Origin: an uncultured Methylococcaceae bacterium
GTDB lineage: Bacteria; Pseudomonadota; Gammaproteobacteria; Methylococcales; Methylomonadaceae
DNA length: 64,000 nt
Direction of reading: 5' to 3'
Assembly (NCBI GenBank): GCA_903945375.1
Contig: CAJAVP010000086.1
Location: 1 to 64,000 of the forward strand
The position numbers and the translations under genes were made by a program. Within the stretch, counting starts at the first letter, position 1; every line of letters starts with the position of its first letter. The notes under the pieces were generated by a model, which did no database searches, was not told the origin of the DNA, and was given only the letters and a program-made list of their open reading frames with translations. This document shows, one piece after another, positions 38,609 through 40,583 of this stretch.

Positions 38609-38677
38609 TTCCCGGCAATAATCCCTACAAATCAATGCAGATGGCATTCATTAGCAATTTTTGACATAAAAACCATT

Positions 38678-38784: not shown

Positions 38785-39599
38785 ATGAGACCTTTTTTAA
38801 AGTGGGCAGGCGGAAAGTACAAAATAATTCATCGAATCCAGCAGGCTTTACCTAATGGAAGGCAATTGATAGAGCCTTTCGCTGGTTCGGGGGCCGTTTT
38901 TTTAAACGTCGATTTTGAAGAGTATCTGATTGCTGACACAAACGCAGATTTAATAAACCTCTACAAACAAGTTCAGGCGCACGGTAATGACTTCGCTCTC
39001 TATGCCTCTGGGTTATTTACACCAGATAACAACACCGAGGCAGCATTCTATGACCTACGAGCAGAATTCAATGCTTGTACAGACCTTGCCAGAAAATCGG
39101 CGATTTTTTGTGTACCTGAACAGACACTGCTTTAACGGACTATGCCGCTACAATTCAAAAGGTCAGTTTAATGTACCTTTTGGTCGCTATACCAAGCCAA
39201 CCTTCCCGAATGTCGAGATGCTTAATTTCCACGAAAAGAGCAAGCGTGCTGTTTTTGAAATTGCAGACTTCAAAGTTATCATGGAAAAGGCGGACATCGG
39301 CTCGGTAGTGTATTGCGATCCGCCTTATGCACCATTGACAACTATGGCAAACTTTTGCAGTTACACAGAATGAATGTACTCTAAATGTTCAACAGACATT
39401 ATTTGATTGCGCCAAGAATCCCATTGGGCGTGAAATTCCTAAGGTGATTAGCAATCACAATACTGATTCAACACAATCCCTGTACTCAAAACTAAAATTA
39501 CATCCTTTGTGGTATTCGTTCAAAGAATTAGTATGTTTCAGCCCAGCTTCGTATATATCAGGAAATTTGTATGCAATTAACTTGGCAGCAAGCAGTTAA
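38785..39599 (+). pseudogene. Dam-type DNA adenine methylase, broken by two frameshifts
   Basis: Homology to D12-class (Dam) adenine methylases runs through three frames. The N-terminus (FLKWAGGKYKI, LIEPFAGSGAVFLN) is in one frame and stops at 39135. The middle, with YLNRHCFNGLCRYNSKGQF and the catalytic CDPPYAPL, is in a second frame that stops at 39373. The C-terminus (NPIGREIPKVISNHNTDST) is in the third and ends at 39597-39599. All conserved parts remain, so decay is recent or the reading is a sequencing error. Its end overlaps the start of an intact endonuclease gene, so the two once formed a restriction-modification operon. Confidence 0.85.
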
Positions 39600-40284
39600 G
39601 GCTGGCTTGTTAAGATACGCCACTAAAAACTCAACAGTCCAAATTGAACGCAACCGGTTTTTACAGCAGGAATTGCCGAGAATCATTGTTGATACTGTTA
39701 GCGCTGGAAAAACACCATCACAAACAGTAAGTCGGGTCTTACAAGAGTTACGAGATGACGGTTTTTTGTTTTTTTCAAGCACTGGCCTGTACACATTAAA
39801 TCAAGTAGTAATTAATGCATCAAGCGAAGATTTTCCTGATGACGTTTTAGAAAATGCTATTGAAAAAGGATTTCTCGAATTACCCGATGTTGTAACATCA
39901 AGCGATGATGCGGTTGTTAGAATAAGACGTGGTATGAATGCCTTGAGAAAAAAGACATTGTCTAACTATCGAAATAGTTGCGCCCTTTGTGATGTAAATG
40001 ACCCAGGGCTTTTGGTCGCTAGTCACATCGCTCGCTGGGCAGACCATCCAGAAGCACGAGGTTTACTATCAAATACAATCTGCTTTTGTACACTTCATGA
40101 TAAGTTGTTTGAAAATGGTTATTTTTCAATGAACGACGAATTGGAATTAATCTGGAAATCTCCCCAAACTATCAAAGTCATTGATATTTGGCGTCAACAA
40201 TGTACTATCAATTTCAAATTTCCACAGACCATAAATCCAGCACTAACTTTTATCAATGAACATCGAATCCGTGTTGGCCTTTAA
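39571..40284 (+). CDS. HNH endonuclease with DpnI-C-like winged helix
   Basis: A 237-residue protein. The N-terminal 70 residues resemble the winged-helix domain of DpnI and Dam-replacing proteins (SQTVSRVLQELRDDGFLFF, GLYTLN). The C-terminal HNH nuclease shows SNYRNSCALCDV, SHIARWADHPEARGLLSN, and CTLHDKLFENGYF, so the metal site looks intact. AGGAAATTTGT precedes the ATG. It overlaps the methylase pseudogene by 29 bases. It is probably a type II or methyl-dependent restriction enzyme; the target is unknown. Confidence 0.82.
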   Translation: MQLTWQQAVKAGLLRYATKNSTVQIERNRFLQQELPRIIVDTVSAGKTPSQTVSRVLQELRDDGFLFFSSTGLYTLNQVVINASSEDFPDDVLENAIEKGFLELPDVVTSSDDAVVRIRRGMNALRKKTLSNYRNSCALCDVNDPGLLVASHIARWADHPEARGLLSNTICFCTLHDKLFENGYFSMNDELELIWKSPQTIKVIDIWRQQCTINFKFPQTINPALTFINEHRIRVGL

Positions 40285-40296
40285 GGAGCAATTGTT

Positions 40297-40497
40297 ATGA
40301 ATAAAAATGAACGAATAAAATGGGCTGCTGCAATAGCAAAACGTATAAGTGATGAATGGGATGGTTCCAAACAATTTCCTGAAGATGCGGCTTTGCTAAG
40401 AGGGTATCTGCAAAAGACCCTAAGTAAAGATGGCGATGCTATTAAGTCTTTTATTGGGACGGGGATAATTGAAAATGATTATTTTAAAAAGATATAA
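40297..40497 (+). CDS. Small protein after the endonuclease (unknown)
   Basis: A 66-residue polar protein without signal or membrane segment. It has a strong AAGGAG eight bases before the ATG and lies 12 bases after the HNH gene, so it is very likely translated from the same message. It could be a restriction-associated accessory or control protein, but no helix-turn-helix is evident. I do not recognise the family. Confidence 0.6.
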   Translation: MNKNERIKWAAAIAKRISDEWDGSKQFPEDAALLRGYLQKTLSKDGDAIKSFIGTGIIENDYFKKI

Positions 40498-40503
40498 CCG
40501 CCC

Positions 40504-40583
40504 GCGTAGGGTGGATAAGCGTAGCGTCATCCACCGATAACCCTTATTAAGTGCTTAGGCGCTATCGCTTATGCACCCTACGC
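40504..40583. repeat. Palindromic intergenic repeat, family A, copy 2
   Basis: Left arm begins GCGTAGGGTGGATAAGCG at 40504, and the right arm ends CGCTTATGCACCCTACGC at 40583. The outer arms match copy 1 (30129-30212), including the same G/C mismatch position, while the inner parts have diverged. It sits in the 122 bases between the small ORF and the DUF1640-type gene. Confidence 0.85.

Follow-up and report, generated by a model that had tools for sequence, protein, structure and literature searches.

The window analysed here, a stretch of 64,000 nucleotides on a contig of an uncultured Methylococcaceae bacterium, contains an intact gene for a 237-aa protein that joins an N-terminal winged helix to an HNH nuclease domain, and the start of this gene overlaps the end of a broken Dam-type methylase gene. 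We conclude, with moderate confidence, that the product of the HNH gene is a self-sufficient endonuclease of the winged-helix-HNH (wH-HNH) type, most likely modification-dependent (type IV) and independent of the decaying methylase beside it. The domain architecture, the active-site residues, the occurrence of the nuclease without a methylase in relatives, its low dN/dS and the broken state of both Methylococcaceae methylases are direct observations; dependence on a modification, the mark that would be read and the activity of the nuclease are what these observations suggest.

Features of the wH-HNH module and the broken Dam-type methylase gene (positions in the window)
Feature	Position	Strand	Remarks
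Dam-type methylase segment 1	38785..39105	+	frame 0, open to a stop at 39135; FLKWAGGK and EPFAGSG
Dam-type methylase segment 2	39107..39373	+	frame 1; target-recognition stretch NRHCFNGLCRYN..NVPFGRY and catalytic DPPY
Dam-type methylase segment 3	39345..39500 (start approximate)	+	frame 2; 68% DNA identity to L071 over 39373-39500
Methylase tail	39500..39580	+	frame 1; usual C-terminal motif not recognisable; ends within the HNH gene (10-base overlap)
Ribosome-binding-like AGGA	39560..39563	+	seven bases before the HNH ATG, by eye
Winged-helix-HNH nuclease gene	39571..40284	+	237 aa, intact ORF
N-terminal winged helix	39571..39810	+	residues 1-80, DpnI winged-helix-like
HNH_2 domain	39979..40131	+	residues 137-187; H152, N168, H176, D177, E181
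66-aa gene	40297..40497	+	after HNH; also behind HNH in two Gallionellales MAGs

A previous sequence-only reading of this stretch had described an intact HNH gene overlapping the methylase end and preceded by a good ribosome-binding site. Both statements hold: the reading frame is uninterrupted, its HNH_2 domain (PF13391) scores 30.1 bits against a Pfam cut-off of 21, and the AGGA is suitably placed. All five active-site residues listed for the domain are invariant in the six HNH sequences aligned, as are two pairs of cysteines (residues 137, 140, 171 and 173; 39979-40089), which form a possible zinc site. The sole PDB match at E <= 1 in a phmmer search with the 237-aa protein was VcaM4I (6yex, E 2e-4), an EVE-HNH modification-dependent enzyme, in which H224, D250 and D254 align with H152, D177 and E181 of the window protein and are reported to matter on the basis of mutation (PMC7897488). 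Compared over 188 codons with its Methylococcaceae homologue (L071, see below), the HNH gene has a dN/dS of 0.13 at a dS of 0.16. The AlphaFold model is confident for residues 1-80 only and poor for the HNH half, and Foldseek with the whole model gave no match at E <= 0.001. The PADLOC matches included a type II HNH family (E 1e-8), and the matches in PADLOC and PHROGs were confined to general HNH or unnamed families; the single NCBIfam match, NF045808 (phosphorothioate restriction), stayed far under its cut-off (36.8 vs 180). The catalytic domain is of the HNH_2 type and not the PD-(D/E)XK domain of DpnI or drg.

In a structure comparison of residues 1-80, the winged helix of DpnI (4kyw 184-254) was top of the 995 solved chains aligned (Z 9.8, rmsd 1.9, 71 residues). 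The DpnI-like winged helix proposed earlier is, therefore, correct as far as the fold is concerned, where DpnI comes first but is tied with other winged helices; the fold alone is no proof of kinship with DpnI, because six further winged-helix rows score no more than one Z unit away from it. Kinship is supported by the sequence, since BLASTP aligned the protein at 18/30 identical residues with the winged helix of L091, a PLD protein whose Pfam DpnI_C domain scores above the cut-off. The window protein itself does not reach the DpnI_C cut-off, its Calidithermus relative scores 14.9 bits where 23 are required, and a winged-helix profile searched against PDB chains found nothing better than E 0.76. 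We class the protein as a wH-HNH fusion with a DpnI-related N-terminal winged helix, though other winged helices score close. It differs, however, from a Gm6ATC reader of the DpnI type: K229 and R231 in the winged helix of DpnI (PMC4117772) are replaced by T52 and S54, according to a mapping in two steps, from the window protein to L091 and from L091 to DpnI, on a shared LQxLRD and with the chain numbering shifted by three. Both replacements are invariant in the six aligned sequences.

Homology to Dam-type methylases extends from 38785 to approximately 39500, and the broken gene as a whole occupies 38785-39580. Pfam PF02086 (D12 methylase) matches segment 1 at E 5.8e-24 and segment 2 at E 2.9e-26; segment 3 has no match to any Pfam family and was detected only with NF008152, a Dam-type model of NCBIfam (E 1e-4). 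These E-values exclude chance as the origin of the matches. The features of a Dam-type GATC methylase, i.e., the FxGxG-type motif, the target-recognition stretch and DPPY, all lie within segments 1 and 2. The residues taken to contact GATC are those of E. coli Dam. Frame 1 is resumed after segment 3 at approximately 39500 and ends with a stop codon at 39578-39580, so that methylase and HNH gene share ten bases. The three frames noticed earlier are real, but the gene has to be described as four segments separated by three changes of frame. The accompanying claim that the homology is complete from the N- to the C-terminus was too strong: the stretch R..IS..G..R..V.ELLA, common in outline to the intact methylases used for comparison (those of the related genome G101, Alicyclobacillus and Legionella), is not recognisable in the C-terminal part of either the window or the L071 methylase. 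A 16-base deletion common to these two, hinted at by the DNA alignment, was dropped as a candidate, as the protein reading, with QRIS in frame, allows another placement. The methylase gene next to the HNH gene is best explained as a decaying gene.

The L071 homologue, from a Methylococcaceae MAG, is 95% identical to the window nuclease over 188 residues and is truncated by the contig end. Its neighbourhood is different (cobalamin genes, by eye), and its methylase and HNH genes likewise overlap by 10 bases. The L071 methylase is open from near its N-terminus, but unrelated sequence stands in place of approximately its first eleven residues, among them the WAGGK motif. Neither of the two known copies of the methylase is, therefore, undamaged, and their lesions differ. 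For the 5' two-thirds of the methylase the window and L071 differ with a dS of 0.37 and a dN/dS of 0.16. The identity between the two is 67% over 39373-39560, as opposed to 90% before and 95% after this block, which is bounded by a frame change and the HNH start and may represent a mosaic or relaxed segment. With G101 as outgroup, the 285 sites of segment 1 hold 2 window-derived vs 17 L071-derived changes; the corresponding numbers are 10/10 for segment 2 and 14/8 for 39373-39500. With Alicyclobacillus as outgroup they are 4/11, 6/11 and 20/13, respectively. In view of the dN/dS of 0.16 and the few window-derived changes in segment 1, the window methylase was probably under constraint and still functional in the recent past, perhaps alongside the nuclease; its last third appears to have another history. 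Synonymous change also differs between the HNH gene and the methylase (Fisher p 0.009), which fits separate histories through recombination but is no proof of them. A recently constrained methylase is the main result left unexplained by a simple story in which the nuclease excludes the methylase.

The genome scan yielded five close relatives of the nuclease: L071, three proteins from Gallionella / Gallionellales MAGs (L072, L073 and L074; 71-73% identity) and one from Calidithermus (L075; 44%). Around the last four, none of the 49 ORFs that reach 80 aa contained a methylase motif of the [DNS]PP[YFW] or PCQxFS type, the sequence upstream of L074 being 0.5 kb only. The four genomes hold no Dam-family gene above the TIGR00571 cut-off; one of them (G202) has two weaker matches to this model, and N6_N4 methylase family matches occur elsewhere in all four. 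Dam-like genes are uncommon anyway, segment 2 being matched in 33 of 200 related genomes, its own included, and their absence from these four genomes consequently shows that the nuclease is independent of the methylase rather than that the two are in conflict. The absence of a methylase beside L072-L075 is provisional, three of the four being MAGs. In the flanks examined, the nuclease thus occurs without an adjoining methylase in four of its five relatives and next to a damaged one in 2/2 Methylococcaceae copies; no intact cognate methylase of the kind expected in a type II pair was found near it in the window, at L071 or at L072-L075.

Searches of 200 related genomes (E <= 0.001), 369 genomes of the class (E <= 1e-15), 158 Gallionella-family genomes (E <= 1e-15) and 50 Calidithermus-family genomes (E <= 1e-20) revealed no additional full-length relative, and viral contigs held no HNH relative. 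Plasmid and phage records (10 and 2, respectively) matched from residue 77 onward only. By eye, the plasmid-borne HNH relatives inspected, from Vibrio, Hydrogenimonas, Hymenobacter, Paracoccus, Natribaculum, Niallia and Exiguobacterium, have differing N-termini, and the winged helix of L074 alone found nothing among the plasmids at E <= 0.5. On the Paracoccus plasmid (L080, 2238-4351) an intact Dam-family methylase gene overlaps the HNH gene by 4 bases; the N-terminus of this HNH protein is longer than and different from that of the window nuclease. More distant HNH proteins (L005-L030), which have other N-terminal parts and of which several lie beside cytosine methylases (by eye), were excluded as family evidence, as was a match in Neisseria gonorrhoeae.

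The source genome contains no paralogue of the HNH gene, the sole match at E <= 0.01 being the gene itself. It had been suggested from the letters that another methylase protects the site, and a second Dam-family gene was indeed found, the only other D12 methylase in this genome (L001, G000:C59:31946-32623), next to an ORF that by eye resembles an integrase. Its TIGR00571 score is just above the cut-off (120.8 vs 114.85), and it has an N-terminal TNQP repeat and a different target-recognition stretch. Because NGLxRxN..NVPFGRY, the stretch associated with GATC, is missing, this enzyme is unlikely to methylate GATC, which weakens the suggestion. There are, in addition, four N6_N4 methylase matches in the genome.

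Dispersed repeats lie on both sides of the module, at 38620-38668 and 40500-40583. The former, located behind slt where the module begins on its left side, is common to the genus (96% in G003, G009, G010 and G011); the latter recurs at G000:C92 (94%) and in many related genomes, often with matches on both strands. The sequence after slt varies among members of the genus. In 16/16 other loci of the genus purT and slt occur together, and the flanks examined at those 16 loci gave no match to the methylase, the HNH protein or the 66-aa protein. The latter is 64-67% identical to its counterparts behind the HNH genes of L073 and L074; in L072 the gene is no longer intact, and an IS30-like ORF (by eye) comes after it. 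The 66-aa protein matches no family above a cut-off, has no plasmid or phage relative at E <= 0.01 and none among the viral contigs. Its model is predicted to be mostly helical (pLDDT 85) and matched nothing in the PDB at E <= 0.001, with two rows at E 7.2. It may be a partner of the nuclease or may inhibit it.

The sequence-only reading held that an active nuclease without its protecting methylase would be lethal. Our results do not support this, nor the underlying premise that this methylase protects against this nuclease. Of the three ways out that it offered, a methyl-dependent or otherwise self-sufficient nuclease is the best supported, because four of five relatives show no neighbouring methylase and the architecture is shared with wH-HNH enzymes regarded as type IV. 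Counted against a stand-alone enzyme are the overlapping ends of the methylase and HNH genes, which look like those of a coupled pair. This overlap, preserved over 10 bases in both copies, would be expected if the locus were the remnant of a type II pair, i.e., a sequence-specific HNH nuclease from which the Dam-type methylase formerly protected the cell and a different methylase does so today. The recent constraint on the methylase, the C59 gene and the four N6_N4 matches as candidate guardians, the PADLOC type II match and the precedent on the Paracoccus plasmid all point the same way. We nevertheless assign this explanation only a minor, though real, chance: the relatives do without such a methylase, the C59 enzyme lacks the relevant target-recognition stretch, the HNH gene has been kept where both known methylases are damaged, and the Paracoccus protein begins with a different N-terminus.

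Sequencing or assembly error, with a methylase intact in the cell and thus an ordinary pair, would agree with the recently functional appearance of segments 1 and 2. It is unlikely, as it would require three frame changes in one gene of 0.8 kb within a window where ORFs of 90 aa or more take up 90% of the sequence; moreover, the L071 homologue is damaged too, and the drop to 67% identity between much more similar flanks is beyond base-calling error, although a chimeric assembly could produce it. That the nuclease is catalytically dead or unexpressed, leaving nothing to protect against, is highly improbable; the poor model of the HNH half would suit it, but the active-site residues are kept in all six sequences, the dN/dS of the gene is low and the AGGA is well spaced before its start. 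A further option is that methylase and wH-HNH nuclease form one overlapping operon with mutually exclusive products, a modifier and a nuclease attacking the modification, and that lineages switch from methylating to restricting by breaking the methylase. This would explain a recently constrained methylase beside a constrained nuclease, yet we hold it to be distinctly unlikely.

For the reading that we prefer, a self-sufficient and probably modification-dependent enzyme, the N-terminal winged helix would read a modification on incoming DNA and the HNH domain would cut near it, so that the nuclease would operate independently of the neighbouring Dam-type methylase. If Gm6ATC were read as in DpnI, loss of the methylase would be a condition for keeping the nuclease and pose no danger. 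A simple Gm6ATC reader is, however, disfavoured by the replacement of the two DpnI residues, by the lack of in vitro cleavage in the published wH-HNH table discussed below and by the recent constraint on the methylase. If our reading is true, the locus is a genomic scar, in a bacterial methanotroph, of the conflict between DNA methylation and the nucleases that read it. The two damaged methylases and the four relatives with none nearby would provide a test set for the question of whether wH-HNH proteins without the DpnI residues read 6mA. The locus also cautions that neighbouring nuclease and methylase genes are not always a classical restriction-modification system.

Of all relatives searched, G101 has the methylase most similar to the broken one (72% over segment 2); it belongs to a DpnII-type system (L042), in which it is followed by a CcrM-like methylase (below the cut-off of that model) and a DpnII-family nuclease, not an HNH one. 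VcaM4I resembles the window nuclease in combining a reader domain with a related HNH domain with matching active-site positions; its reader is an EVE domain for modified cytosine instead of a winged helix (PMC7897488). A parallel in architecture is provided by the wH-HNH fusions described in 2024 (SruGXI, HpaD253I, HhaN23I and others; 224-283 aa), which their authors regard as probable stand-alone modification-dependent (type IV) enzymes (PMC11037411); the likeness is one of architecture and not of direct sequence comparison. Table 1 of that paper lists seven wH-HNH proteins of < 300 aa, of which four were strongly, two mildly and one not toxic in Dam+ E. coli; in vitro none of the seven is marked active there (three '-', four not determined), while the introduction nonetheless states that active representatives were found. 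The published winged-helix motif occurs in about 10% of the fusions, SruGXI being the exception named there, which is toxic with Dam without having it. As with the relatives of the window nuclease, the winged-helix fusions mostly lack a nearby methylase (87% of > 1,000 have no methylase gene among three genes on each side). The seven proteins in that table are haloarchaeal, whereas the window protein is from a methanotroph and adjoins a Dam-type pseudogene end to start. Loss of a methylase at the site of a nuclease is also known from drg (dam-replacing gene, NmeBII) of Neisseria, which is inserted at dam and encodes a DpnI-like product (PMC516771); the window nuclease is an HNH enzyme and its methylase remains as a pseudogene. 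A drg-like arrangement, in which the HNH gene would interrupt the methylase in its middle, was rejected, as the HNH start sits where intact methylases end. Finally, some PD-(D/E)XK-wH genes, i.e., those of Moraxella ovis and a Bacteroidota isolate, are directly adjoined by frameshifted methylases (PMC11037411). Their nuclease fold differs from the HNH fold of the window protein, but the arrangement is the same, and the locus described here is a new example of this already described pattern of a winged-helix nuclease beside a broken methylase.
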